This document shows, one piece after another, positions 1-14,891 of a stretch of 64,000 nt of DNA. The notes beneath the pieces were generated by a model. That model was given only the letters and a program-made list of their open reading frames with translations. It was not told the DNA's origin and searched no databases. A program made the position numbers and the translations under genes. The stretch comes from Verrucomicrobiales bacterium. GTDB taxonomy: Bacteria > Verrucomicrobiota > Verrucomicrobiia > Verrucomicrobiales > DEV007. The stretch is taken from the NCBI GenBank assembly GCA_012960505.1, contig DUBC01000007.1, positions 186,001-250,000 on the forward strand, in the 5' to 3' direction. The number at the start of each line of letters is the position of its first letter. Position 1 is the stretch's first letter.

Positions 1-1630
1 GGAAGGGATCCGTAACGGCGGTAGTTAACGGTACCACAGAGTTGTTCTTCGTCGGGGGTGCAAAACAGTAGATCTCACCCTCAGTGGTACTGACAAGTAA
101 CCGCCCATCCGCAATAGCAAGCCCTCGTGCTTCCCCTTTAATCATTGACTGCCATTTCGGTTTCCCCGTTAAAATGTCCAGCACAGTCACCTCACCGATC
201 CCGCCGGCCACTACCGAATTTCCTGTCACCACCAGCGATGATTCATTCTTGGAGTTGAACCGCCATTTGATACCGACCTGTTTAAACTCCTCGATGCTCG
301 CCTTCAGTTCTTTATATTGTTCCTGTTTCGCATTGAAGTCCTGGCGGCTTTTTTCATATTTTTTCGCAGCTGTTGCATAGGCAGAGCTTGCTACTTTCAC
401 TGATTCTCGCGCCGCTGCATGGCCGGGCGTCGCGGATTCCCCCCTGTCGGTCAATTCCTCGAGTCGCAGCCTAGCCGTATCCAATTTGGCCTTGAGTGAT
501 TTTGCGTCCTTCAGTTCGGAGGGCGCCTTGTGGCGGGTAATCGCTCTTGTTAAATCGTTCATTTTCAGATCAAGCGGATGCCGTTTGCGTGTCGCTGCGG
601 CATGTTCACTGTGGTCAACGGCAATAATTTCTTGGCCGTTCGCCATGTAGGCCATGTCACCGGCCATGGTCATGCGCCGGGCAAGGAACCAGCCAAATCC
701 GGTCCTGCCCCGTTCCTGATCGAGAGCGAGCACATGGTGCTCGGCAAGGGAATAAAGCTGATCGTTGGCAAGCATTGCGTCCGTGCCGCCTATCTGCCCG
801 CCACCGTCACGCCTCCATGACGGCGCCGACTTATAGATTCGCTCGCCATTGGAGCGCTTGATTGCCGCCGGCATTGAACGCCCGGATGGAACAAAAAGAA
901 TATCCTTTGAAGCAAGCATGTAGCCTTGTGGAGATAGATCATCGCGGCCGGCATCGCGCTGACTGATCCGGTCGTTTTTCCAGATAATTTTCCCGGTCGC
1001 GGCATCGACCGCATAGAGGTAAACCGTTTCATGTGGAAAAACTCCCGCACCGAAATAAGCAATGCCGCTATCAATCAGAACACCGGTACGCACCGGCCAG
1101 CGTGAGGTCATTCGGGCACGGGCGAGGATGCGCTCATCCCTCGGGCCGGCTCGACGTTTCCAGATCAGTGCCCCCGATACAGCATCAAGGCAATAGACAC
1201 AGCCGTCATCTGACCCGGCATAAACTCGTCCATCGGCTACGGTTGGTGCCAGGCGGATCGGACCATCAGTAAAGAACGTCCAGTGCTCGGTTCCACTTGC
1301 CGCATCTCTGCAGTGCACCCTACCGTCAACCGATGACCCGAAATAAACCCGCTCCGCTGCAATCGCCACGTGGAACACGTCATCGAAGCGGATCCGGGAA
1401 CGCAGTTTCTTGCCCTCATGCACCTTGTCGTGAGGTCCAGAGAATGCGCGTTTCGGTGGTACTGGTGATTTATAGGTCCAGCTCAAGGTAAGCGGTGAAC
1501 CAAGTGAATCTGGAGTGGATCCAACACGCGAGTTGTCATGCATATAGGTCGGCCAGTCTGAAGCCGCGCAAATAGCTGTGGTGGCGATGGTAAAAACAAT
1601 TGCAAAAAATCCCCGCAAAGCATATCTCAT
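1..1630 (-). CDS. PQQ-type beta-propeller secreted protein, 3' end cut by window edge
   Basis: The frame is open from an ATG at 1630 down to base 1 with no stop, so about 543 residues are visible and the C-terminus lies outside. Residues 1-24 form a signal peptide ending near ICAAS. Blade-like repeats follow, each with a YxGSxDGxVYCLDAxSGxxIW pattern (about residues 95-150 and 215-230), typical of PQQ-like or BamB-type propellers. Residues about 355-450 are charged and helical (a likely coiled coil), interrupting the propeller, which resumes at about 460-525. Probably periplasmic or outer-membrane associated; substrate unknown. Such proteins are common as large paralogous sets in Verrucomicrobiota and Planctomycetota. 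It is codirectional with the CotH gene 128 bases upstream of it. A methyltransferase domain sometimes follows in this family, but that cannot be seen here. Confidence 0.85.
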   Translation of the reverse strand, partial: MRYALRGFFAIVFTIATTAICAASDWPTYMHDNSRVGSTPDSLGSPLTLSWTYKSPVPPKRAFSGPHDKVHEGKKLRSRIRFDDVFHVAIAAERVYFGSSVDGRVHCRDAASGTEHWTFFTDGPIRLAPTVADGRVYAGSDDGCVYCLDAVSGALIWKRRAGPRDERILARARMTSRWPVRTGVLIDSGIAYFGAGVFPHETVYLYAVDAATGKIIWKNDRISQRDAGRDDLSPQGYMLASKDILFVPSGRSMPAAIKRSNGERIYKSAPSWRRDGGGQIGGTDAMLANDQLYSLAEHHVLALDQERGRTGFGWFLARRMTMAGDMAYMANGQEIIAVDHSEHAAATRKRHPLDLKMNDLTRAITRHKAPSELKDAKSLKAKLDTARLRLEELTDRGESATPGHAAARESVKVASSAYATAAKKYEKSRQDFNAKQEQYKELKASIEEFKQVGIKWRFNSKNESSLVVTGNSVVAGGIGEVTVLDILTGKPKWQSMIKGEARGLAIADGRLLVSTTEGEIYCFAPPTKNNSVVPLTTAVTDPF

Positions 1631-1758
1631 AATAAACGATTGTGGCAGATAAGTTCCTGATAACAAGCAATTCCAAGGGATAGTGTAGTACATAACATGT
1701 CAATAACTTCGTGATCGGGTTAGGTTCTTCTGGAAATCATAAAGGCACTTTCCTGGGC

Positions 1759-4700
1759 TCAATGCGCACGAACTCGTTGTCGAACGTAATGAGGAAATTC
1801 CTCACCAACTGAAAGGAAAGATACTATCGCCGTGCCGTCGCCGAGATTTTCCTCGCCGACATACTCCCAGTTTTCACCAACAGTAGACCAGGTGCGCAGA
1901 TCTTTCGACGTCTCAAGTTCGAATGAAAGGCCTTTAGTGAGAAGGTTTCGTTTAAAGGATACAGTCAAAGAATCAGTTGTGTCCAATCGTATGTGGATCG
2001 TGTCGTTTGTGGTGTCAGTAACGGTGGGGTCGCTTGCGTCAGCGAATTCCAGTAAGGCGACCCGGCCGTCCCCGTCAAGATCGGAATCAGGATCAGGATT
2101 TCCAAACTGAAACGCCCAGTTAACATAACTCATCGTGTCGGTGTAGCCGGGCGTGCCACCGCCGGTAGCACTACTTCGCCAGTTTGCGGCAACATTATGT
2201 TTAGGGTTCGAATCGGGATCAATGAGAACAAGGCTATATCCACCGATGTCAGCGGCGACTGGCCAAGGCGCGCGGTCAGAATATGTAAATTCCTGCAGTG
2301 TTTCGCCTTCGGAAGATAATAGAGTTAATCGCTCTCCACCATTACTGAGTCCTGTATCGTTTAAAAACTCACCGGCGATACGATCGGCGAAATCCTTGCC
2401 ATAACGAAATTCGAATGCCGCGCGATTACGGACCAGTAGTGCACGTTCATCGGGTTGAAGTAGAATGAGTGGAATATTGTTAAACTCAAAATCAATGCCT
2501 CTGCTAAATTGTATCCCGAACAGACTCACCGGCTTGTCGCCTATATTAAGTAATTCAAGGTATTCGAACTGATCTCTGTCATCGTATCCTGCGGCAATCT
2601 CTTCGGCCGTGGGAGAATGGGGGCGATACAAAATTTCGGAAATGACAAGGTCAGTTGTGTTAGCAAGGTTTTCTGACGCAATAAGAGTAATCTTTTCAGG
2701 CGCGCTCCAAGTCGAGCCGTTGTAGGTCCGAGCAGTTATGACTTGGGTAGTGTTAATTCGTAGTGGTGTTGCTGAAATGTTGTGATTGATTTCGAGTGTG
2801 GCGCGTGTGAGGAAATCAGATCCTCCACGCGAACTGTTAATTCCGTGTACAGCTATCACGTTTGACCCATTACGCATATGTTCCTTGAATGGTGTAAGAT
2901 CAATTTCGATTGGTGTTTTTAATACGGCAGAGTCGCCTCCTGGGCGAGATCTTCCGTTTACTGTTCGGCTATCCCACATTGGGGGATCTGGTTTCAGGAG
3001 GCTACCAACTTCGATTCCGTTAAAGTAAGCAATGAACCCGTCATCGGGCCACACAGACAACAAAATCGTGTTAATGTTTTCAGTATTGTCAAAATTAAAT
3101 TCATACCGCACATAACAAGTCGAATTAATGCCCTTCATTAAATCCTTGATGTCTGTATTAATCAGTTCACTGATCCCACCAACGGATTCGAAGCCAATGC
3201 CGTTAATTGCATCTATCCAGTCAGAGTCATCAAATTTGTCTGGATTCTGTGTCCAGCTTAATTCTAAGAGCCCGTCCTGAGGGATCAGGTAACTGCAAGG
3301 TGACTCTGGATCTAATATATTTTCATTAATGGGGCCTCCGGGAAAACCTACTGATTCGGCTGAGGGCAAGCCTCCACTGGCTCGGGGGTCAGTTCCATCT
3401 GTAGTGTAGAATACTTGCCCGTCGGGAGAGTTCATGGTGAGTCCGAACCCTGGATCGACTGTGCCGCTAACAGCGTTGAAAATTGGCATAGCTGGATACT
3501 GCTCATCGACCCAAGATGTGCGTGCCTCTAACCAGTTTTTCATATGTGAAATTTCTGCTTCCCAACCACTTAGATCTGGGTCGGCAAATTTTCCTCCGTT
3601 CGGTGGATGTTGCTTCCATCTCTCAAAGTTTCGGGCCTGTGATTCACGAATCTTGTTTGCCATTGAATCGATGACTGAGTGAAGGTTGGATATCGAGAAC
3701 TCTTTTCTGCGCAACGCGAACCACCGATCTGTGTGGAGCTGGCGGATGTCTGGATAGTTTGCCCTTGCCGGGTCAGCTGTAGGACCTAGAAGGTTTCCAT
3801 ACCATGGGAACCTAGAATCGTACCAGGTGTGGCTTGAAACTGTGCCTACGCTGTTCACAACGCCGGCCCAGGCCCGTGGTTCATTGTCTCTGACGTCTTC
3901 ACAGCCGAGGGCTCGATCGTAGTCCCACACTGGTCCGCACACGATCTTTCCTCCGCGGTCCTTGTAGAAGAATGCACTGTGACGGCCCCAGTCTATATTC
4001 ATCACCATGATATTCAGCCAGTGATGATCGATCCAGGAATCAACGTCGATATAATCCGAGAAGTGGAGACCAGTTGAGCGGTTCATCCCGGTCGGTGCGT
4101 TGGTTAGTGCGGTATTAAGTTCGTTCAGATGGCTAGTGATCCAGGATCGTTGCTGGGAGGAAAGCTGCAGACCTCCAGGGTCTACGTAGGTAAGCTGACC
4201 CATGCCCCTGACATTCATGGTAGGTTCACCAGGATCAGGGCGATCGTTTTTGAAAATATAACCTCCGGTGATTTCCGGTTCAGAGTTCTCCCAAGGCATG
4301 AGATGCTCGATGTTGACTCGGTTAGGATCCATTTCAATTCTCTCAATCAGCGAATAGACTCCGAAGTAGTCATTGTCTGTGACTGTATTGCCGGACGTGT
4401 CGCTAAACACCTCAACGAATTTTGTGCGCGGTGCATAACGACCAATTTGACGGCTAATTTCATATACAAAAGGGTTTCGCATTAGTGCTAAATCCCACTC
4501 GTAACGTGCATTCAGGATCCAGTCCGCTTCCCTCGCCATACCAAAGGGTTCGATGTTTCGATCCTCTTCGTCACCATCCCTCCAGGTTTCGATAGATAAC
4601 GAATACTTCGGCCATCCGCCAGAACTGGAACCGCGCCTTCGTATACCCGCGCGCGTGGTAAGTTCCGGGCCCTGGGTAAGAATCGTTCGTCCGGTAACGG

Positions 4701-6189
4701 GATCAGGTTCAAAGAAAAACATATAAGCTGTCTGTCTCGTAGTGGAACCCGTGCTCGGAGGTGAACCTGTGCCGAGCGTTGAAATCACGATGATCGGTAA
4801 ATCTGAGGAAAATGCCGGCACGTTTTGTGACATTTTAAGAAAGGTCTCAGTCTTAACTGCACCGTCAAGGGCCCCGGCCCGAAAAGCACGGGCACGGATC
4901 TGGGTACTCTTATTGATTAGGATCGGGTCGGTGTATTCTGTAGAGGGGTTGGCGCTGTCATTATTTGGGATGCTGCGATTGGTAGTGTAGCGGATAATTG
5001 TTTCTGGCGTTGGTGAACTCAGTGACAATTCGAAGTTTTCAGTGAACATGTTACTTGTTTGGGAGAAAACGATGTCATCTGGTGGTGGGTTTTGTACGGT
5101 ATCGTTCGGTTTGCCTGGTGTCGGAACTTCCAAGTACCCGAACTGGATTCCGACGGAGGTGTCTTGTACTTCAGCCACCAACTCGGCGTCGATGATGAAG
5201 TCAGAACTGCTCCTGCTTTGATTCATGCCTTGGATTGCGAGGACGTTACGTCCACTAATCAGCTCAGTGTGATTGGCGGTCGCATCTATCACGATAGGAG
5301 TGGATTTGACTGTGTTGTCACTGCGGGTAGAAGTGGACGAAGAGTTCCAGAGAAATGGTGAGGGCTTCCCGAAACTGCCAATTTCAATTCCGTTGAGGTA
5401 GGCTACAAAACCATCGTCTATGGTTACCTTCAGCTGCAATGAGGAGACTTGTTTTCCGGTAAGATCAAAGGTGAAAGGGAAACGAAAATAACCGCTCGCG
5501 TTAGTGCCTCTCATGTCCTCTTTGATGTTGGTGGTGATAACGTCCTCGAGGATGCCGCCCGAAGATTCGAAACCGATTCCGGTCGCAGCTTCGGTCCAGG
5601 TTGAATCATCAAACTTTGCAGGGCTCTGCTTCCATGTGTTGCCGAGAGAATCGTCTGATGCTATAAAGTATTTAGTTATTGAGCCGAATTTGACTAGCGT
5701 TTCAATATTAGCGCCGTCTGATACTCCAATTCCATACGAAATATTTTCAAATTGTTCGGGATAAGTTGGCGCAATTTCGCTAACAATTGTTATTCCATCA
5801 GGTTGGATCAGAGCAATGTAGTCGCCGCCGCGGTCAAGCGTGAAGCTCGTATGAAGTTCGGTGTTATCTGATTTATCCTTACCTGAGGCAAAGACTACAA
5901 GTGAATTGCCAGCAGAGATATCAACTTTGGGGAATGTCCACCTTTTGAGGTCGTTCTTATTATTAGTTAGATGATATCCCTCTAATGAAACTGAATTATT
6001 CCCCGCATTAGTAATTTCGATCCAGTCTGAAGGTGCTCCGTCTGAATCCCGAAAGTTTTCATCAGCAGCTGCCATCAGTTCGGTGATAACTATTTGTGCT
6101 GGGGAAGAGCTTAGTAAAATCAGTGAAATGCCAACACTAGAGACCGCGCGTGCTAACGCTGCATGATTGAGTCTGTGGTAAGTAGCCAT
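1759..6189 (-). CDS. Secreted CotH-kinase / lamin-tail-domain protein
   Basis: This 1476-residue protein has an N-terminal signal peptide (to about residue 31) and then a lamin-tail domain (about 33-110, VITELMAAADENFRD). A galactose-binding-like module (176-341) is followed by a chitobiase-type beta segment (380-440), a CotH kinase-like domain (about 460-880) and another chitobiase-type segment (913-938). A second copy of the galactose-binding-like module (966-1137) and a second lamin-tail domain (from 1180) follow. Near 1363-1383 is a calcium-loop-like DSDLDGDGRVALLEF segment, common before sorting tails in Verrucomicrobiota. CotH signatures seen are NIDWGRHSAFFYKD and GPVWDYDRALG (about residue 760), holding the acidic metal-binding residues. 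Family members in spores phosphorylate coat proteins; extracellular versions like this have no assigned substrate. Start chosen at 6189, giving a clean signal peptide. Confidence 0.88.
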   Translation of the reverse strand: MATYHRLNHAALARAVSSVGISLILLSSSPAQIVITELMAAADENFRDSDGAPSDWIEITNAGNNSVSLEGYHLTNNKNDLKRWTFPKVDISAGNSLVVFASGKDKSDNTELHTSFTLDRGGDYIALIQPDGITIVSEIAPTYPEQFENISYGIGVSDGANIETLVKFGSITKYFIASDDSLGNTWKQSPAKFDDSTWTEAATGIGFESSGGILEDVITTNIKEDMRGTNASGYFRFPFTFDLTGKQVSSLQLKVTIDDGFVAYLNGIEIGSFGKPSPFLWNSSSTSTRSDNTVKSTPIVIDATANHTELISGRNVLAIQGMNQSRSSSDFIIDAELVAEVQDTSVGIQFGYLEVPTPGKPNDTVQNPPPDDIVFSQTSNMFTENFELSLSSPTPETIIRYTTNRSIPNNDSANPSTEYTDPILINKSTQIRARAFRAGALDGAVKTETFLKMSQNVPAFSSDLPIIVISTLGTGSPPSTGSTTRQTAYMFFFEPDPVTGRTILTQGPELTTRAGIRRRGSSSGGWPKYSLSIETWRDGDEEDRNIEPFGMAREADWILNARYEWDLALMRNPFVYEISRQIGRYAPRTKFVEVFSDTSGNTVTDNDYFGVYSLIERIEMDPNRVNIEHLMPWENSEPEITGGYIFKNDRPDPGEPTMNVRGMGQLTYVDPGGLQLSSQQRSWITSHLNELNTALTNAPTGMNRSTGLHFSDYIDVDSWIDHHWLNIMVMNIDWGRHSAFFYKDRGGKIVCGPVWDYDRALGCEDVRDNEPRAWAGVVNSVGTVSSHTWYDSRFPWYGNLLGPTADPARANYPDIRQLHTDRWFALRRKEFSISNLHSVIDSMANKIRESQARNFERWKQHPPNGGKFADPDLSGWEAEISHMKNWLEARTSWVDEQYPAMPIFNAVSGTVDPGFGLTMNSPDGQVFYTTDGTDPRASGGLPSAESVGFPGGPINENILDPESPCSYLIPQDGLLELSWTQNPDKFDDSDWIDAINGIGFESVGGISELINTDIKDLMKGINSTCYVRYEFNFDNTENINTILLSVWPDDGFIAYFNGIEVGSLLKPDPPMWDSRTVNGRSRPGGDSAVLKTPIEIDLTPFKEHMRNGSNVIAVHGINSSRGGSDFLTRATLEINHNISATPLRINTTQVITARTYNGSTWSAPEKITLIASENLANTTDLVISEILYRPHSPTAEEIAAGYDDRDQFEYLELLNIGDKPVSLFGIQFSRGIDFEFNNIPLILLQPDERALLVRNRAAFEFRYGKDFADRIAGEFLNDTGLSNGGERLTLLSSEGETLQEFTYSDRAPWPVAADIGGYSLVLIDPDSNPKHNVAANWRSSATGGGTPGYTDTMSYVNWAFQFGNPDPDSDLDGDGRVALLEFADASDPTVTDTTNDTIHIRLDTTDSLTVSFKRNLLTKGLSFELETSKDLRTWSTVGENWEYVGEENLGDGTAIVSFLSVGEEFPHYVRQRVRAH

Positions 6190-6193
6190 TTCG
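6175..6193. repeat. 19-bp exact repeat, copy 1
   Basis: The 19 bases GTGGTAAGTAGCCATTTCG occur here across the start codon of the CotH protein (encoding MATYH on the minus strand) and again at 12360-12378 in the same orientation. The flanks do not match. See the second copy. Confidence 0.7.
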
Positions 6194-6236
6194 AATGCAT
6201 ACTATCCTTACCGACGGGTGCGCTCAACCTCGTATT

Positions 6237-6464
6237 TTAAAGGTCTTCTAATTCCTTCTTGGCTTTTGCTTCTTTTGCCGACTTTTCCCTCGTCTTTACT
6301 TTGACAATTTTGTCCATCACGTGATTTTCAGGAACAAACCAGTATCTGATTTTGAGGTAGTATACGCTAAACGCATTTTTTATTTCAGCCGACAAATCAA
6401 AAACACCTTCTTCTCTCTTTTTGCTTGGCCAGATTGCAGTGAGAAGTCCACAAGTCTGGAACTT
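6237..6464 (-). pseudogene. Possible gene remnant without start codon
   Basis: A 75-codon minus-strand frame runs from just after a TGA (6465-6467) to a TAA at 6237. It reads as plausible protein: a hydrophobic/aromatic part (AFSVYYLKIRYWFVPENHV) followed by a highly charged Lys/Glu/Ala helix ending KELEDL. No ATG or GTG occurs before the second half. It may be the 3' end of a decayed gene or a small gene with an unusual start; I do not recognise a family. Confidence 0.3.
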
Positions 6465-6564
6465 TCAAAACATTGAAAATGTTCGGAGAGGTTCAGCCGG
6501 ATACAAAAAAAGCGCGCGTTGTTCGCTCTGTAAACAGGAGGGAAAAGACAAAACTGGAAATAAC

Positions 6565-6594
6565 TTGCCTCTTTTGATGCTGAAGTAGTATTAT
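6565..6594 (+). promoter_or_regulatory. Possible promoter of the LamG gene
   Basis: TTGCCT (6565-6570) and TATTAT (6589-6594) are separated by 18 bases and resemble -35 and -10 boxes. The ATG at 6602 lies where transcription would begin, and no Shine-Dalgarno sequence precedes it, so the message could be leaderless. Sequence match only. Confidence 0.35.
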
Positions 6595-6601
6595 CCCGGG
6601 C

Positions 6602-8623
6602 ATGAGTTTTTGGAGAATTTGTTTCACAGCTACTTGTTTGGTTTTGATTGGGTTAGTGACACGGCTCGAGGCCGGTGTCTTGAGCCTTAATGGAACTTCC
6701 CACGTTGAACTTGCCAATCCATCAGGTGTTTTTCCGATTGGCAATGATTCCTTTACCATTGAAGCTTGGATTAACCCGACAAGTATTCCTGCGGGCGGTG
6801 GATCTGGTGGTCAGATTACGTTTTGGGGGAACCAGTCCGGGAACCAGTCCAACGGGTTCCGAATGGCGGGGAATGCAGGAGTTGTGCATTATTTCTGGGG
6901 GAACGACCACGCCGTTAGCGGCCTCGGTGATATGCTGGATGACTCGACAGGTCCGAACGGAGACGGTTGGCATCACGTGGCTATTTCTTATGACGGCGAT
7001 TCCAGTCAGTCTACCTGGTATAAGGACGGTGAGGTTATTGGCGCAGCGAACCAAACCCGTAATCCTGGAGTTAACGTTGCTGATGCAAATTACCGGATCG
7101 GTTCGCGGCTCAACGGAGAGTTCTTTCATGGATACATTGATGAGTTAAGGGTCTGGTCCAGTGCTCGTTCGGATTCTGAGCTTCTTTCCAATTTTGATTC
7201 ACAGATTAATCCTTCGAGTTCCGATCTTGTTGCTTATTATCAGTTTGAAGGTGCCGACGATTTTTCCGATTCAACAGAAAATGCCAATGATGGGACTCCG
7301 AGAGGCGTTGGGGCAACAGTGGACACCGGTATTGATTCGCCGGCACAACCTCAATTGGATGCAGATGAAGATGGGATTCCGGATTTCTGGGAAGACGAAA
7401 ATAACGTTGATGATCCCGATGGTGACCCCGACAACGACGGGCTGAGCAATGCGGCTGAATATGCAGCAAAAACGAATCCGAACGCAGAAGACTCGGATGA
7501 AGATGGGCTTGGCGATGCAGCGGAGATCAACGACCACAATACCGACCCCACTTCAGCGGATACGGATGGTGACGGCCTTGAAGACGGAGAAGAAGTTAAC
7601 GGCACAAATGGATTCACTTCTGACCCAAACTTGATCGACACAGACAATGATTTCGTGAATGATTTTGCCGAGGCTGAGGGAGGATCTGATCCCAATGATC
7701 CCTCTGATCCGGTTAAGAAGGGAGGAGTTCTTGAACTTGATGGTCAAGTCGCCAACTTTGTGACTTTTAACAATGATTCAGGACTCATCCCGATCGGCGC
7801 TTCTTCATTTACTATCGAGGCATGGATTAACCCGACCAGCATTCCTGACGGCGGGGGAAGCGGAGGGCAGATTACTTTCTGGGGGAACCAGAGCGGTCAG
7901 AAAGCGAACGGTTTCCGTATGGCAGGCAATCAAGGTCTGAGACATTATTTTTGGGGGAATGACCACGATGCCAATACTTCTGAGGACATGTTGAGTGACA
8001 CAACAGGTCTGAATGGGGACGGTTGGCACCACCTAGCTCTTTCTTACGACGGTGATACCAACAGCTCGACATGGTTTCACAATGGAATTCCTGTTGGAAC
8101 GAAAGTGCGGAGCACTGATCCTAACGTTGATGATGCCAATTACCTCATTGGAAAGAGAACCACAGGGGAACCGTTCCACGGTTTCATCGATGAGTTGCGG
8201 ATCTGGAACGTATCTCGCACAGACGAGGAGATTGTTGAAAATTTCGAGCTTGAACTCTCTGGCGAAGAAAACCTCGTGTCCTACTGGAACTTTAATACCG
8301 GCCTAACCGATATTACAGGTAACGGCCATGACGGGATCGCGGTAGGAAGTGCCAGTATTAACAGTATGCTGAATGCTCCGGTCAGTTCATCGGGTTCTTT
8401 AGAAATTACTGAAGTTGCTTATGATCTTTCCGGTGACGAGGTTACGATTGCCTGGACATCACGTTCTGGTAGAACCTATGCTCTTGACTACTCGGAGGAC
8501 CTGATGGACTGGATCGAGATTGATGACGGCATTGCCGCGGACGGGGACTCGACAGAATTCACCGATGTCTTGCCTCCCGGGACAATGATGCGTTTTTGGC
8601 GAGTCCGCGAAATGGATCCCTAA
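6602..8623 (+). CDS. Secreted protein with two LamG domains around TSP3-like calcium repeats
   Basis: The 673-residue protein starts with a signal peptide (1-25, cleavage near LEAG). A LamG/concanavalin-like domain follows at about 26-225. Thrombospondin type-3-like repeats rich in DxDxDGxxD (such as DTDGDGLEDGEE) occupy about 250-370, and a second LamG domain about 376-590. The two LamG domains are very similar (both have SFTIEAWINPTSIP, GGSGGQITFWGNQSG and NGFRMAGN), so one arose by internal duplication. The C-terminus (about 605-673) is the beta segment common at the ends of Verrucomicrobiota secreted proteins (ALDYSEDLMDWIEID). It probably binds carbohydrate or matrix in a calcium-dependent way; ligand unknown. 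Its stop overlaps the stop of the convergent lipoprotein gene. It is the only plus-strand gene in the first 14.9 kb. Confidence 0.88.
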   Translation: MSFWRICFTATCLVLIGLVTRLEAGVLSLNGTSHVELANPSGVFPIGNDSFTIEAWINPTSIPAGGGSGGQITFWGNQSGNQSNGFRMAGNAGVVHYFWGNDHAVSGLGDMLDDSTGPNGDGWHHVAISYDGDSSQSTWYKDGEVIGAANQTRNPGVNVADANYRIGSRLNGEFFHGYIDELRVWSSARSDSELLSNFDSQINPSSSDLVAYYQFEGADDFSDSTENANDGTPRGVGATVDTGIDSPAQPQLDADEDGIPDFWEDENNVDDPDGDPDNDGLSNAAEYAAKTNPNAEDSDEDGLGDAAEINDHNTDPTSADTDGDGLEDGEEVNGTNGFTSDPNLIDTDNDFVNDFAEAEGGSDPNDPSDPVKKGGVLELDGQVANFVTFNNDSGLIPIGASSFTIEAWINPTSIPDGGGSGGQITFWGNQSGQKANGFRMAGNQGLRHYFWGNDHDANTSEDMLSDTTGLNGDGWHHLALSYDGDTNSSTWFHNGIPVGTKVRSTDPNVDDANYLIGKRTTGEPFHGFIDELRIWNVSRTDEEIVENFELELSGEENLVSYWNFNTGLTDITGNGHDGIAVGSASINSMLNAPVSSSGSLEITEVAYDLSGDEVTIAWTSRSGRTYALDYSEDLMDWIEIDDGIAADGDSTEFTDVLPPGTMMRFWRVREMDP

Positions 8624-11600
8624 CGCTTCAGCGTGAGGTTTTTTGTTCCTGCCTGAACCTTTTGTTCTCTTATTTTTCCGTCCGGCCAGTGGACTGTTAA
8701 GGTTGTGTTTTTTCTTGGCATAGCAAAGAACAGCACCGGGGCGGACTGTGAGAGGTATCCTGATCCGAGGTAGAGCTCGGCGGACTGTATTGGATTGGAG
8801 TTTAATGTAAGCTTGATGCCTGGCATTACTGGTAGTCGGACGGAAAGAATGCCGGGCGCGGTTGATTTGAAGCTGCGCACCCGGTCACTGTTTATTCCAA
8901 TGTGCAGGTCCGGGAGGCTGTCTCCGTTTGTGTCAGACAATGTGGCCGACGTGGCATCACCGGAAACCGATATGCCGCTCTGAGCCGACCTGATTGCATT
9001 AAATTTTCCATTTCCCATTCCAGTCATCAATAATGAGATGCCTCCATCCATACGTCCCGTTTCGGGTTGCGGGCTAAAAAAATTCTGTGCGATGACGAGG
9101 TCCGGGATCCCGTCACCGTTGAATTCACCGGAGACGATTCCGAATCCAGGAGCTATCTGGGCAAGGCGGGGGAACGGGTTGAATTTAAATCCTGCCTTCC
9201 CGTCATTGACCAGCAAACCACTTTCTAGGGCACGAGTCTCGAGCTGTATTGCGCGATCGAGTAGCTGAGGACTATAGATGTCTTTCAGCTCGGATACGGC
9301 GAAGGAGCGATAAGTGTCGAATTTATTCCCCAGTGAAGGGATTGCTCGGGTTGAGCAACTCCGTCCTCTGATCGGGTAGCAGATTGTTCCTTCAAACTCG
9401 GCTTCCACCAGTCGTTTTTTCCGGGAACTGTCAAATTCTCCATAGTAAAGCAGTATCGGGCGTTCTGCGCTGGCATGATACTTGGTGTTGAGTCCAAAAT
9501 TGGTAACTGCGTAGTCCATGTCGCCGTCACCGTCAGCGTCCGTGCCGGTGATCCCGTTCCACCATCCGGTCCTTTCGGCTAGACCTGCCTCTATGGTGCG
9601 GTCTTCGAGTTTACCCTCAAAGTTCAGATACAAGGCGACAGAACCCCACTCCCTTGTTAACAGCAGGTCAAGCCAACCGTTATTATCAGCGTCAGACCAT
9701 ATTGCTCCGGTAACCATGCCGGCTTCTTTTAATGTTGGAGCTAATATAGTGGTCTTATCTATAAAGATTCCCTTCCCGTCGTTAATTAGAAGTCGGCTCC
9801 CTGGTGCCATAGGATATTGGCTGGGGATTACACGCCCGCCGACGAACAAATCAAGATCACCGTCGCGGTCGAAGTCCGCAGCACAGGCCGGTCCACTGCT
9901 GACGGGCGGGCCAGGGATCGACGCAGGTGTCCGGTTGAAGTAACCACTGCCATTATTCATGTAGAGCCGGTCTGAATAGATTTGGTGGCCGGGAGGAGCC
10001 TCAACACCGCCACTGGCTACAAACAGGTCCAGGTCACCGTCACCGTCGGCGTCGAAAAACAGCGTTGCCATGTCCTCAGCACCCCGGTCAGTGATCGACG
10101 CGGTCCAGTTCTTAATCTGCCGAAAAGAATTCCCCTCGTTAATGTGCAGCTGACCCATATATCCACAGCCTCCACCTAGAAAAAAATCATCATCGCCGTC
10201 ATCGTCGACGTCACCCCAGGCGGACCCGGGCCCGAGGAAGGACAACTTATTAGGCAAAAGCGGTTGGAACTGGAAGTCGTTGAATTCCTGTTCTCCATGC
10301 ACAGCCATTTTCAGGGACGGAGTCTTCTTAAACAAAGGATCAGGTTTTTGAGGTGGTTTTCCTATAGGATCACCGCTTTCCATTATTGTGTAGAGTGTAT
10401 CAGCTTTGAGTTTTCGTAGTTCCTGTCGCACTCCACTTGGCCAGTGAATTGTCAGGAGGTCGATCTGCCGAGCATCTTTGAGTCCGAAGTGTGCCAGTGG
10501 CTCATCGCCGGACTTGAATCCTGAGAGTGGTCGCAACCATCGCTGCTGAATTCGTCCGTTAATTTCTGCTTCTAACCGGGCACCGAACCCGGAGCGGTTG
10601 CTACGGGTTCCGACAAGACGCACTGAGACACGCCTGCCTCCACCGAGATCATTGCGATACAGAGTCACAGGTTCGTCCATGTTCACTACTACAAGGTCAG
10701 GATCGCCGTCCAGATCAAAGTCAGCTGTTGCGGCGGCGTAGCTGATACCCACGTGCGCCAGTCCCCAAGCCTTAGAGACATCACGAAGGTTTAATTCACC
10801 GACATTGTGGAAGGCTAGGTTTTGTTCCTTGCGCGGCGGAGTGTTTTCATAAGGAATCCATTCACTGCGGCCAATGAATAGTTTTTTAGAAAAAGGCAGG
10901 TCCGAATTGTTAAAGTTTCTGGTCATTCCGTTGGAAAGGAACAGATCGTCACGACCATCACCATCGAAGTCAGCGAACTTCACCGCCCAGGTCCAATCTG
11001 AGTCCGCAATTCCAGTCAGATAAGCCGCTTCCATCATGCGTCCGGTGCCGGTTCCGAGGTAGAGCGCGTTGCGCATATACTGGCGCGGGTCGGTTGTTGT
11101 CACCCATAACCTTGTTCCCATTGCTCCCATGGTGGTCTTGTCCTTGTAATGGGTCGTGCCTGACATGTCGGCGGCGAGCAGGTCCGGCCAGCCATCGCCA
11201 TCGATGTCTGTAGAATCCGCTCCCATCGAAAACCAAGCTGTATGTGGCAGAACCTGTGCGGTAACATCAATGAAAGTTCCGTCCTTTTCGTTATGATAAA
11301 GAGCATCGGGGTCATCAAAATCGTTGGAAACGTAAAGGTCCGGCCAACCGTCCTTGTCATAGTCCCACCAGGTTGCGGCGAGTCCATGGTGAGGGTTACG
11401 GGTTATTCCAGATTCCTTGGACACATCGATGAATTTGCCATTGTCGTTGCGCAGTAATCGATCGGACCGAGGCACGATGTTAAGGGTTCGTTCTCCCAGG
11501 GGAGTTGTAATGAACCGGAAATACTTCTGTTGTTTTGGGGTCAGTTCCTCAGGTTCAGTGGATGGAAAACCTGTTGCTGAGTAATAACGGTTCGTCAGTA

Positions 11601-12246
11601 AGTAAAGGTCCAGATCGCCGTCCCGGTCGTAATCACAGAATGCAGGAGCCAGCGAGGCGTCAACGAGATCAAGACCAAATTCCGCAGCATTCTCAGTAAA
11701 AATCCCCTTCCCGTTGTTCAAATGAAGTGTGTTTGGAGAATCATAATTGGCAATGTAAACGTCCAAGTCTCCGTCATTTTCAATATCAATCAGAGTCGCT
11801 GCAGAGGCCCAGTTCCCTTTCCCTCCAAGATTGGATTTCATGGTTGCGTCCTCGAAGCGAAAATCTCCCTGATTGCGGTAAAAGCGGTTTTTCTGATCGG
11901 TTCCGGCAAAAAACAGGTCCGGTCGATCGTCACCATCTAGATCTCCCGCAGCCACTCCACCGCAGGCGAACCCACTCACGTAGAGATGCTTATTAGGGGA
12001 AGAGAGATTAATTGAATAATTTAGATCAAGACCACTGAATTCTGCGGGCAGCGCGATGAACTTTCCGGATGCCGGAGACCCAGAGGATTGCAGAGGTCGG
12101 GCTGTTAAGATTTCTGCTGTCTGCTTAACATTTCTTTGATCTTGTTTCTCTGCCTGTTGTAGCTTGCCGTTATCAGTTGACTCTGATTGCCTGCCACACC
12201 CCACAACAAAGAGCAGAGAAACAACGGCAAGCGACAGGTGGCGCAT
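8620..12246 (-). CDS. FG-GAP/VCBS and ASPIC/UnbV-domain lipoprotein (CRTAC1-like)
   Basis: I start this 1208-residue protein at the ATG at 12246 because it gives a lipoprotein signal, MRHLSLAVVSLLFVVGC, with the lipobox cysteine at residue 17; an upstream ATG at 12285 would add 13 residues that spoil the signal. Many FG-GAP/VCBS repeats are visible, each with a DxDxDGxxDLxxxN calcium loop (for example DYDRDGDLDLYLLTNR and DIDGDGWPDLLAADM), in two blocks around a UnbV domain (about residues 550-640, with FGARLEAEINGR and HWPSGVRQELR). The C-terminus carries a second short UnbV-like piece (HWPDGKIREQ). This is the CRTAC1-like architecture abundant in Verrucomicrobiota, Planctomycetota and Acidobacteriota. 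Probably a membrane-anchored surface propeller; ligand unknown. Confidence 0.9.
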   Translation of the reverse strand: MRHLSLAVVSLLFVVGCGRQSESTDNGKLQQAEKQDQRNVKQTAEILTARPLQSSGSPASGKFIALPAEFSGLDLNYSINLSSPNKHLYVSGFACGGVAAGDLDGDDRPDLFFAGTDQKNRFYRNQGDFRFEDATMKSNLGGKGNWASAATLIDIENDGDLDVYIANYDSPNTLHLNNGKGIFTENAAEFGLDLVDASLAPAFCDYDRDGDLDLYLLTNRYYSATGFPSTEPEELTPKQQKYFRFITTPLGERTLNIVPRSDRLLRNDNGKFIDVSKESGITRNPHHGLAATWWDYDKDGWPDLYVSNDFDDPDALYHNEKDGTFIDVTAQVLPHTAWFSMGADSTDIDGDGWPDLLAADMSGTTHYKDKTTMGAMGTRLWVTTTDPRQYMRNALYLGTGTGRMMEAAYLTGIADSDWTWAVKFADFDGDGRDDLFLSNGMTRNFNNSDLPFSKKLFIGRSEWIPYENTPPRKEQNLAFHNVGELNLRDVSKAWGLAHVGISYAAATADFDLDGDPDLVVVNMDEPVTLYRNDLGGGRRVSVRLVGTRSNRSGFGARLEAEINGRIQQRWLRPLSGFKSGDEPLAHFGLKDARQIDLLTIHWPSGVRQELRKLKADTLYTIMESGDPIGKPPQKPDPLFKKTPSLKMAVHGEQEFNDFQFQPLLPNKLSFLGPGSAWGDVDDDGDDDFFLGGGCGYMGQLHINEGNSFRQIKNWTASITDRGAEDMATLFFDADGDGDLDLFVASGGVEAPPGHQIYSDRLYMNNGSGYFNRTPASIPGPPVSSGPACAADFDRDGDLDLFVGGRVIPSQYPMAPGSRLLINDGKGIFIDKTTILAPTLKEAGMVTGAIWSDADNNGWLDLLLTREWGSVALYLNFEGKLEDRTIEAGLAERTGWWNGITGTDADGDGDMDYAVTNFGLNTKYHASAERPILLYYGEFDSSRKKRLVEAEFEGTICYPIRGRSCSTRAIPSLGNKFDTYRSFAVSELKDIYSPQLLDRAIQLETRALESGLLVNDGKAGFKFNPFPRLAQIAPGFGIVSGEFNGDGIPDLVIAQNFFSPQPETGRMDGGISLLMTGMGNGKFNAIRSAQSGISVSGDATSATLSDTNGDSLPDLHIGINSDRVRSFKSTAPGILSVRLPVMPGIKLTLNSNPIQSAELYLGSGYLSQSAPVLFFAMPRKNTTLTVHWPDGKIREQKVQAGTKNLTLKR

Positions 12247-12359
12247 ATTAGAACTATCAGAGGTAGAAACAAAAAAGACCAACACTTTACGGGTTCAACT
12301 CAATCCATTATTGTTAAAAATACAATTGAGGCATGAAAAATTTAATGTTTGTATGCTTA

Positions 12360-12378
12360 GTGGTAAGTAGCCATTTCG
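12360..12378. repeat. 19-bp exact repeat, copy 2
   Basis: Same 19 bases and orientation as 6175-6193. Here the minus-strand ATG is followed after five codons (MATYH) by a stop, so it encodes no gene. It lies about 115 bases upstream of the lipoprotein start and looks like a recombination or duplication scar. Confidence 0.65.
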
Positions 12379-12414
12379 GGGGCACCTATCTCCCTGGCAA
12401 TCTTGGTATAGCTT

Positions 12415-12786
12415 TCATCGCGTTGCGGTCTGTGTCTGCTCCCCGGCTTTGATCTGGAAATATAGGTTTCTCGGCGCGCTCTCGTAGTATCTGTCGAGGG
12501 CCGGGCACAACCAACCCTCCATGCCATTCTCTTCCCACTCATAGGTGTTGCCCGGGGGATCTTCACGCTTCCAGATGAGGCGGGCGGTGTGCCCGGGGAA
12601 TGGATCGCCCGAGAAAAGGCAAATGAAGCCGTTTTCCGCGTTGGGGATGTCTTCGGTGATGACGTCGAGAATGGTGTCCATGCCGGCGACGAACGCCTCG
12701 CGTTCAAGGTCAACGGCGGGATCATCAAAGACCCACTGACCGTGGTATTTGTAGGGCCTTATTACGTTTATCTGGTTGCTGTTCAT
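12415..12786 (-). CDS. DUF6717-like small cytoplasmic protein
   Basis: About 123 residues from the ATG at 12786 (MNSNQINVIRPYKYHGQWV); an upstream ATG at 12834 would add 16 residues of low-complexity sequence. The INVIRPYKYHGQWVFDDP start, the EAFVAG core and a WLCPALxxYYxxAPxxLYFQ end fit the DUF6717 family as I remember it (function unknown). There is no signal peptide or membrane segment, so it is probably cytoplasmic. A 123-codon frame at 12357-12728 on the same strand overlaps it but is compositionally a frame shadow. It sits just left of the tRNA-Arg fragment, at the edge of the possible integrated segment. Confidence 0.65.
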   Translation of the reverse strand: MNSNQINVIRPYKYHGQWVFDDPAVDLEREAFVAGMDTILDVITEDIPNAENGFICLFSGDPFPGHTARLIWKREDPPGNTYEWEENGMEGWLCPALDRYYESAPRNLYFQIKAGEQTQTATR

Positions 12787-12837
12787 TTCAGTCTTTCTTC
12801 TATTGTTGTTCCTGTCTTGTCCGGGGTAGGTCATATC

Positions 12838-12889
12838 TTAGCAGTACACCCACTAGGAATCGAACCTAGACCTACGGTTCCGGAAACCG
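12838..12889 (-). repeat. tRNA-Arg 3' fragment, attachment-site-like direct repeat
   Basis: These 52 bases match 14813-14864 with one mismatch (C at 12871 for T at 14846, in the tRNA variable loop). They cover tRNA nucleotides 28-72 (anticodon loop, T arm, 3' acceptor strand) plus seven bases beyond the 3' end. The D arm and 5' acceptor strand are absent, so it is not a working tRNA. The copy has the same orientation as the intact gene, as expected for the displaced end left by a tRNA-targeting integrase. Confidence 0.85.
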
Positions 12890-13052
12890 AATAATGCAAT
12901 GTTAGTATTGCTTGTTGGTACATATTTTAAAGGGTTAAGGGAGATTGTTGGGATTTTGTTGATGGTCGGTGTGATGAAATGACCGCTTACTTAATGAAAG
13001 TTGTTTTGCACCCTCCTCATCAGCCCTTGAGTAGGCGTAATGATTTTCGCGA

Positions 13053-14657
13053 CTACACTTTCAACAAACGTTTGGCCTCCTCATATCCCGGCGCGCGGTG
13101 GCCGGAGCCCTTGCCGCGATTATCATCGACGGTGAAACCGTAGCAACTCGCGGTAACGCGTGCCAGGGAGACCATTTGCCGCCATCGGAAGGCCTTGCGG
13201 ATGGTGGTGAACTCCTCAGTCGCGGTGCGGTAGTATTTCTCCGCGTGCAATCGACCATCCTCGCTGGTGCCGAATTGGATCAACACGTTCAACAGCGGGC
13301 GTTGTGCATGGCCCAATTCGCCATAACGATGCACAAGCGCGCAGGCGCGCAGCTGATTGTTCTCGCGAATGGCGCCATCCAATTCGCGCAACAGCGCCTT
13401 GGGCGTGGCAGCCTTCACGTGCTCCAGCTGCACGGTTTGCGGGAAGGGATTCTGGCGATGGCCCTGTAGCTTGTCGCCCTTCGGCCGACTGTGGCTGTTC
13501 GAGACATTTTGAGCGGCGATGATTAACCCCGTCACCGCATGGCGATGGCTACACACCCGCGCGATGTTGCGCCAGGCGTTGATCATGTCGGAGGCGTGAA
13601 CGCCACGCGAATCACCGTGTGTGCGGCGGCCGTAACCCTCCCAAACCTCGACCTGCCGGAGGATGAGCTGGTTGGCCGCCAGAGAGATGGCCTCGCCGAC
13701 GTGCTCGGGCAGAATGCCCTCGGCCAAAGCCGCCGCCGTCGACTCGGCTGCCTGGTTCGAGTCCAGCGTGAGAATGTTCAGGGCAAATTTATCCACCCAC
13801 GCATCGTCCGCCTTGCGCTTGCCAGCGGGATGACTGAGCAATTTGTATTCATCGAGCAGCTTCGGAATAAACGCGCGTCGGCGCTCCACCGTCCGATTCG
13901 TGCCCCGTGAATTATGGCCGGCGCATTGGCGTACAGACTGGCGCAGAAACGTTAGCGCATGCTCTTTGCCCGTCAACTCCAGCACGTCCCACGCGCGCCA
14001 CGGCATCACGATGGTGTGCACGTTGTGGTTGTCCTCCACGTGATGCAACACACCGTTGAACGCCGACTCAAGCGACTGTTCCGCCAGTGCAGCGAGTAAT
14101 TTCTCGGCCTTGGTCTTGTCCATGGCATTCGTGGCCGCACGCAACTGTTGCGCGGCTTTGTCGATCGCGGTCTCTGAAATGTCAAAGGAAATCTTGGCGG
14201 CCTTGACCGGCTTGAGCACATCCTTCGCATGCCCGCCAGTTTTCCCCGTGTAAAAGGAATTGCGATAGAGCACCTTCAAAACCGGCAACGCTTCCTGCCC
14301 CTTCGGCATTTCCTTTGACATGTCAAACGCCGGCGCCAGCGCCATGAAGGTGTGGAAGCCGTGATAATTTTCGCCACCAAACGTGCGCGCATTGGCCAGC
14401 GCGCCAGCGGCGACCAGTTGCCTCAATGGCACGCCCGCGTTGAGCTTGCCAACGAGCGCAGTCAATATTTTTGGGGTCGGGGTTTCCTGCATTAGCCCAA
14501 CCAGTGGCTCAAGCTTGCCGAACAATAGTCGAGGGTCGTCCTCGGCGGCATACGCCGTGGACACGCCTAGGTCACTGGCCAGCGACGTTCCCAAGCTGGC
14601 CACCAGCATACCTTGACCAACATCAGAGAGAAATTCGCGCCGGGAGTGGATATTCAT
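13053..14657 (-). CDS. Tat-exported protein of unknown function
   Basis: About 534 residues from the ATG at 14657, chosen because MNIHSRREFLSDVGQGML starts a twin-arginine signal (SRREFL plus a hydrophobic stretch to about residue 36); the ATG at 14696 only adds an unlikely leader. The rest is mostly alpha-helical by composition with many His, Arg and Ala residues (GGENYHGFHTFMALAP, HHVEDNHNVHTIVMPWRAWD). The clustered histidines suggest a metal or cofactor site, but I cannot name a family with confidence. Tat export implies folding in the cytoplasm, often with a cofactor. One sampled 60-base line (13501) is 58% G+C against 42-45% in sampled lines to the right. It is the only gene between the intact tRNA-Arg and its fragment. 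Confidence 0.7.
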   Translation of the reverse strand: MNIHSRREFLSDVGQGMLVASLGTSLASDLGVSTAYAAEDDPRLLFGKLEPLVGLMQETPTPKILTALVGKLNAGVPLRQLVAAGALANARTFGGENYHGFHTFMALAPAFDMSKEMPKGQEALPVLKVLYRNSFYTGKTGGHAKDVLKPVKAAKISFDISETAIDKAAQQLRAATNAMDKTKAEKLLAALAEQSLESAFNGVLHHVEDNHNVHTIVMPWRAWDVLELTGKEHALTFLRQSVRQCAGHNSRGTNRTVERRRAFIPKLLDEYKLLSHPAGKRKADDAWVDKFALNILTLDSNQAAESTAAALAEGILPEHVGEAISLAANQLILRQVEVWEGYGRRTHGDSRGVHASDMINAWRNIARVCSHRHAVTGLIIAAQNVSNSHSRPKGDKLQGHRQNPFPQTVQLEHVKAATPKALLRELDGAIRENNQLRACALVHRYGELGHAQRPLLNVLIQFGTSEDGRLHAEKYYRTATEEFTTIRKAFRWRQMVSLARVTASCYGFTVDDNRGKGSGHRAPGYEEAKRLLKV

Positions 14658-14762
14658 GATTTTATTGGAGAGGGGGTTTTGGTGGAGGCAAGTCAAGTCC
14701 GTAGGATCGGCCAGTCCTTGGTTTCATGTTTGAAGTGTATCCCGTGGACAGCGTTGCGCCAT

Positions 14763-14786
14763 AAAAAAAGTTGCACTTGAGTGCAA
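14763..14786 (-). terminator. Rho-independent terminator of tRNA-Arg
   Basis: On the minus strand TTGCAC/GTGCAA form a perfect stem around a TCAA loop (14771-14786), extendable by one pair, followed by C and seven T residues (14763-14769). It lies 33 bases beyond the tRNA 3' end, in the right orientation to end tRNA transcription and insulate the Tat gene downstream. Confidence 0.8.
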
Positions 14787-14812
14787 ACGTCTAACTACCA
14801 GTTGCTGTTATA

Positions 14813-14864
14813 TTAGCAGTACACCCACTAGGAATCGAACCTAGATCTACGGTTCCGGAAACCG
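14813..14864 (-). repeat. Attachment-site-like repeat inside tRNA-Arg
   Basis: This is the intact-gene copy of the 52-bp direct repeat found at 12838-12889. The distance between copies is 1975 bases. It spans the anticodon loop to just past the 3' end, the usual crossover zone of tyrosine integrases. Confidence 0.8.
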
Positions 14865-14891
14865 TTGTACTATCCATTATACTATGGGTGC
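14820..14891 (-). tRNA. tRNA-Arg (anticodon CCG)
   Basis: The 72-nt cloverleaf reads from G1 at 14891. The acceptor stem GCACCCA pairs with TGGGTGT (G-U at the first pair) and the discriminator is A at 14820. The anticodon arm ACGGT-TTCCGGA-ACCGT gives anticodon CCG, reading CGG codons. The T arm is CTAGG-TTCGATT-CCTAG. No CCA is encoded. The gene marks the boundary between GC-richer accessory DNA to the left and AT-rich housekeeping DNA to the right. Confidence 0.95.

Follow-up and report, generated by a model that had tools for sequence, protein, structure and literature searches.

Additive flexible genomic islands, in which gene cassettes are anchored at tRNA genes, have been described in Alteromonas (PMC4119200), in Candidatus Actinomarinales (PMC7771536) and in Methylophilaceae (PMC10872708); the literature on these islands includes the example of A. 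australica GI5, which ends in the last 52 nucleotides of a tRNA-Leu. The Islander definition of genomic islands (PMC4383910) requires an integrase gene within the island, and recognizes a class with an anticodon-centred crossover. The microcin H47 island of E. coli (PMC3191183) is 13 kb long and has no integrase inside: its excision was shown with enzymes from elsewhere. Finally, tycheposons, in the summary account given in PMC10872708, have a tyrosine recombinase and a size of 4-200 kb.

The locus that we compare with these systems lies in a window of 64,000 nucleotides, the whole stretch of DNA that was analysed, which corresponds to bases 186001-250000 of the 360-kb contig C7 in a draft genome (G000) of 4.0 Mb, 56 contigs and 94% completeness. 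Its features, from the tRNA gene leftward, are the following:

14820..14891, minus strand: intact tRNA-Arg(CCG) gene, single copy in the genome (the ARAGORN call, 14819-14891, is one base longer)
14813..14864, minus strand: 52-nucleotide putative att copy matching the displaced fragment, inside and just after the intact tRNA (repeat search)
14771..14786, minus strand: terminator-like hairpin and T run, about 33-48 bp past the tRNA 3' end and ahead of the cargo gene, of a kind equally frequent in shuffled sequence
13053..14773, minus strand: extent of the DNA homology with isolate SZUA-1035 (74% nucleotide identity), gene and upstream sequence, nothing beyond
13053..14657, minus strand: cargo gene, Tat-signal protein of 534 amino acids from the likely ATG, all-helical model
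12890..13052, no strand: AT-rich spacer between fragment and cargo gene, 163 bp, GC 0.39, no ORF
12838..12889, minus strand: displaced tRNA 3' fragment, nucleotides 28-72 and 7 more bases, putative distal att site (repeat search, genome DNA search)
12415..12786, minus strand: DUF6717 gene adjoining the fragment and probably belonging to an earlier layer
1..12837, no strand: right part of a GC-rich accretion of about 22 kb in total, which begins about 7.3 kb left of the window and is absent from congeners G007 and G004

A preliminary description of this DNA reported a 52-bp repeat of tRNA nucleotides 28-72 and seven further bases, with one mismatch, in the orientation of the intact gene and 1975 bp away; the repeat search and ARAGORN agree on all of these points, the spacing being counted from start to start. 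The single mismatch between 12838-12889 and 14813-14864 falls at tRNA nucleotide 46, and a longer version of the repeat, 12834-12889 versus 14809-14864, covers 56 nucleotides at 96% identity. When the repeat is compared with the DNA of the entire genome, two matching places only are found, with E-values of 1.8e-36 (the query itself) and 2.7e-20, and the third-best match is 15 bp long, with an E-value of about 1. The gene calls also bear out that a single credible gene lies between the copies and that no integrase is seen there, genes with the PF00589 domain being found on other contigs only. The spacers of the segment contain neither an open frame nor a recognisable integrase remnant; spacer 12890-13052 occupies the place where the comparison with genome G028, discussed below, would put an att arm or an integrase. 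The 2-kb locus is very probably the footprint of a site-specific integration at a tRNA gene.

The tRNA itself is a mosaic. Compared with the tRNA-Arg(CCG) of four congeners, the intact gene differs at nucleotides 27, 39, 43, 44, 46, 48, 49, 63 and 64, and nowhere in 1-26; compared with that of G070, from another genus, it differs at nucleotide 26 only, which is of the congener type. The displaced fragment is identical over nucleotides 28-72 (45 nucleotides) to the tRNA of G072, again from another genus. Nucleotides 27-72 are thus of a foreign genus's type, and import is the most likely origin of the 3' half. Since both copies carry an imported 3' half, at least two events are needed. The bases that follow the tRNA (CTGCTAA; 7-10 bases) are common to congener G008, although the tRNA there has a native 3' half. 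Import of the 3' half by itself leaves this unexplained, and gene conversion between the two copies may have occurred.

The cargo gene could also start at TTG 14696, for a protein of 547 amino acids, but homology suggests the ATG at 14657. The protein has the twin-arginine motif SRREFL, and searches of Pfam and NCBIfam return no family match. With a GC content of 59.4% and a GC3 of 0.73, the gene contrasts with the neighbouring proBA genes, at 42.3% and 0.46. Relatives carrying the Tat gene and both repeats, which the preliminary description had named as an argument against integration, were not encountered: the gene is absent from nine congener assemblies, which are 53-91% complete, so that each absence is uncertain, and the tRNA is bare in G007 and G004. 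Homologs of the protein are sporadic, in scattered genera of the family, with 42-52% identity over the alignment. The closest relative found, at 77% amino acid identity, is in the MAG Verrucomicrobia bacterium isolate SZUA-1035, on a contig of 58% GC without tRNA, and the DNA homology extends from the stop codon to a point about 116 bp ahead of the likely ATG. No tRNA was called at the loci of the relatives, so that the gene has no tRNA link elsewhere. Neither the Tat family nor, in an exact search, the att core has a match in IMG/VR. The AF2 model of the protein has a pLDDT of 81, and its comparison with the PDB by Foldseek gives nothing below E 0.001. Two candidate resemblances were set aside, and we claim no function from either: a weak structural one to 8yxs, a non-heme iron dioxygenase (probability 0.92, TM 0.39), and the sole PDB sequence match, 5mfi, which covers about 50 residues and has a name that reads like that of a designed repeat protein.

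The DNA to the left of the fragment is GC-rich as well. Contig C7 is mostly at about 40% GC, and from about C7:181 kb up to the tRNA it is at 47-55%. According to the preliminary description, an empty site that joins position 12837 to the tRNA in relatives would reveal the 2-kb insertion. Among the relatives examined, no allele lacks exactly the 2-kb piece; instead, congeners G007 and G004 have the bare tRNA followed, within about 250 bp, by the sequence found here at C7:178.5-178.7 kb: some 22 kb are missing from them, the fragment and the Tat gene among the rest. In congener G008, the 1476-aa gene found here at window positions 1759-6189 ends 1.1 kb from the tRNA, and the equivalent of window 6.6-14.8 kb is missing. 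The DUF6717 gene is 89-93% identical in nucleotides to DNA of another genus (g24) over two partial alignments, one of 209 bp and one of 55 bp, each of them at a contig end, whereas for proBA the identity to that genus is mostly 64-69%. A leftward search for an integrase and a third copy of the repeat, which had been proposed as a check, found neither; when the surrounding 25 kb was scanned with gaps allowed, using both native and imported 3' halves, no degenerate third copy rose above shuffled sequences. The imported type of both copies and the layered gene content would fit serial additions, yet a single fragment survives. In the accretion of about 22 kb, the 2-kb segment probably came last, its integrase having acted in trans or having since been lost.

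Two neighbouring observations belong here. Congener G009 (L097:3870-8358) has a 4.5-kb insertion of two genes behind its tRNA-Arg(CCG), both co-oriented with the tRNA; it was not counted as a further case, since it has no tRNA fragment and the 3' flank of the tRNA resembles that of the uninserted G007. The other GC-rich stretches of contig C7, at 16-24 kb and 282-300 kb, lie downstream of tRNA-Leu(AAG) and tRNA-Phe(GAA), and have no detectable tRNA fragment.

An integrase-bearing counterpart exists in G028, a single-contig assembly of the same order, where an island of 50 kb occupies the tRNA-Arg(CCG) gene (C1:1793400-1843230; L122:8919-10088). The 3' fragment of that tRNA, 50 kb downstream, also begins at nucleotide 28, and a PF00589 tyrosine integrase lies 97 bp from the fragment. 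In G015, a third fragment breaks at about nucleotides 28-30. Edges that coincide in the anticodon stem are the expected outcome of a crossover in the anticodon loop. A gene similar to the G028 integrase was searched for in ten genomes of the genus, and none was found at E 1e-8. The genome studied here has three PF00589 genes: two on contig C16, called XerC/XerD-like on sequence resemblance, and one of 429 amino acids and phage type on contig C35. The latter was considered as a helper and rejected: its contig has no tRNA fragment, and it has no match at E<1 among the proteins of the G028 island. Nor does the genome show any other integrase with an att site that matches. This gene, the only phage-type integrase of the genome, sits beside a DUF1501 and PSCyt2/PSD1 pair (C35; L117:675-6435), like the pair found in the tRNA-Ser(CGA) segment listed below.

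We now turn to the other tRNA genes of the genus, 107 in all, of which 37 belong to this genome and 70 to congeners; for the 37, up to 20 kb of downstream sequence was searched. For seven of the 107 tRNAs, six of these cases being independent, a displaced fragment of the tRNA's own 3' part lies downstream in the same orientation; no tRNA has such a fragment in the opposite orientation. The segments thus bounded are 0.2-4.6 kb long and hold from none to three genes, with no integrase found. This genome contributes four of its 37 tRNAs, Arg-CCG, Ser-CGA, Leu and Arg-TCT, again with no opposite fragment, and the congeners three of their 70: Ser-CGA in G002, Val-TAC in G006 and Thr-CGT in G003. 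Apart from the Arg-CCG locus, they are:

G000 C16:317249-321903 (L220:15250-19904): tRNA-Ser(CGA) segment, 4.5 kb, PSCyt2/PSD1 and DUF1501 genes
G000 C48: tRNA-Leu segment, 167 bp, no gene
G000 C36: segment of the second tRNA-Arg, TCT, 0.9 kb, no convincing gene
G006 C499 (L305:3900-7381): tRNA-Val(TAC) segment, 3.3 kb, three genes, fragment 96% identical
G003 C13 (L306:2074-3095): tRNA-Thr(CGT) segment, 0.9 kb, single ion-channel gene, fragment 81% identical

The Ser-CGA segment has a GC content of 0.54, against 0.41 beyond it, and is common to G002 at 90% nucleotide identity, so that these two cases are not independent. None of the four segments of this genome has a PF00589 gene; among the four genes of the Val and Thr segments, two were assigned to a family, neither of them an integrase, and two to no family. 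The first gene of the Val segment encodes a BNR-repeat, sialidase-like protein. When each tRNA is compared with the regions downstream of other tRNAs, the only matches below 1e-5 are to the fragments already found. Every gene of the four gene-bearing units (Arg, Ser, Val, Thr) is oriented like the tRNA, a sample too small for any conclusion. Further partial tRNAs were also seen. The 5' half of tRNA-Ser(CGA) occurs as an orphan, with its end at nucleotides 42-48 and no 3' half, at L303:2583-2626 and at L304:2436-2484 and 3011-3052: these pieces are the complement of the 3' fragments. An exact copy of 31 nucleotides (42-72) from the 3' part of the tRNA at C32:41-112, probably a tRNA-Asn, lies at G000 C16:327957-327987 (L223:6958-6988); the intact gene is at the end of contig C32.

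How could such a locus arise? A small circular DNA, an intermediate that we infer, would have carried one Tat-signal gene together with a duplicate of the tRNA-Arg(CCG) 3' part, and a tyrosine recombinase, presumably of the anticodon-loop type, would have inserted it into the one tRNA-Arg(CCG) gene of the genome. The tRNA would have been completed again by the 3' part that came in, while the former one, displaced 2 kb downstream, would now mark the far end. This would be the latest of at least two insertions: in the order that we propose, an earlier one, presumably among those that built the GC-rich region of about 22 kb to the left, had already remodelled the tRNA. Because the segment has no integrase gene, the enzyme either acted in trans, supplied by a phage, an ICE or a sister element, or was deleted afterwards; for supply in trans, the microcin H47 island (PMC3191183) offers a precedent that was tested. 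That the repeats are of the attL/attR type, as first described, is supported by the single-copy mosaic tRNA, the same-orientation fragment, the foreign composition of the cargo, the lack of this gene in nine congener assemblies and the breakpoint shared with the integrase-bearing G028 island, and we regard integration as highly probable on these grounds. Of the possibilities that the preliminary description left side by side, two find support together, that of minimal cargo and that of an inner edge, the larger island to the left being in that case the accretion. As to what entered, entry as a small unit, with an enzyme in trans, has about an even chance of being right.

The explanation that comes closest departs from this one solely in what entered: a full-size island with its integrase would have integrated, then lost the integrase and nearly everything else, keeping both att sites and one gene. 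The 50-kb island at the same tRNA in G028 makes such an origin conceivable, the geneless 167-bp Leu segment of this genome looks like a remnant, and an integrase would be expected in the position now taken by the AT-rich spacer of 163 bp next to the fragment. However, the spacers hold no open frame or recognisable integrase remnant, no gene like the G028 integrase turns up in ten genomes of the genus at the threshold given above, and four independent segments (Arg, Ser, Val, Thr) have retained both ends and one to three genes, with no recognised integrase; we thus find internal deletion possible but somewhat doubtful. There is also the possibility that the fragment is what remains of a second tRNA-Arg(CCG) gene that lost its 5' half, the Tat gene having come by another route. 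Nucleotides 1-27 are indeed missing, but the part that is kept is identical at 44 of 45 positions while the 5' part is wholly gone, the edge is that of the G028 integrase island, congeners with the locus have one tRNA-Arg(CCG) copy, and other tRNAs too have fragments in the same orientation, with none in the opposite one: a decayed duplicate is extremely improbable. Hardly more credible is the exchange of a patch with another strain by homologous replacement, or the misjoining of contigs at the 52-bp repeat. The genome is a draft in 56 contigs and the adjoining DNA varies among congeners; against an artefact, the copies have two differences over 56 nucleotides, by which an assembler can distinguish them, and the locus is well inside a 360-kb contig.

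If integration of a small unit is the right reading, the locus offers a well-delimited example of single foreign genes that bring no integrase along and yet enter a genome of low GC content by way of its tRNA genes. A single-copy tRNA also appears to have exchanged its 3' half for that of another genus. Since several tRNAs of the genus show the pattern, the movement of cassettes in trans becomes a testable question, through circular forms and a helper integrase. One might go further and conjecture that the genus exchanges units of one to three genes, devoid of integrase and always co-oriented, between tRNA genes by means of a recombinase in trans, as a tRNA-based counterpart of integron cassettes, but we consider this unlikely.

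Insertion hot spots at tRNA genes are a known kind of locus; for Verrucomicrobia, a limited literature search found no earlier report of such tRNA cassettes. Tycheposons, which the account in PMC10872708 places in aquatic bacteria, are likewise cargo elements anchored at tRNAs, but the locus has neither the tyrosine recombinase of their own nor the 4-200 kb size given there. The microcin H47 island (PMC3191183) shares direct repeats as att sites and an interior without integrase; it is 13 kb long and its mobility was shown by experiment, while the present segment is known from its sequence. As in Islander islands (PMC4383910), the intact tRNA is regenerated, with its 3' fragment displaced downstream in the same orientation, and the repeat edge at nucleotide 28, in the anticodon stem, agrees with the anticodon/T-arm subsite and with the anticodon-centred class of crossovers, the crossover itself being presumed; what sets the locus apart is that it has no integrase inside. 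The additive-island cassettes come from other phyla. In the present case the repeat begins at the anticodon stem, the mosaic nature of the tRNA can be detected, and units of one to three genes are found at several different tRNAs within one genus. The likeness is as follows: tRNAs, including single-copy ones, serve as targets of small gene cassettes, a partial tRNA repeat marks the cassette end, a small variable cargo absent from close relatives lies directly behind the tRNA, and cargo moves between genera. Its sequence features would thus place the locus among the additive tRNA cassettes known in other bacteria.
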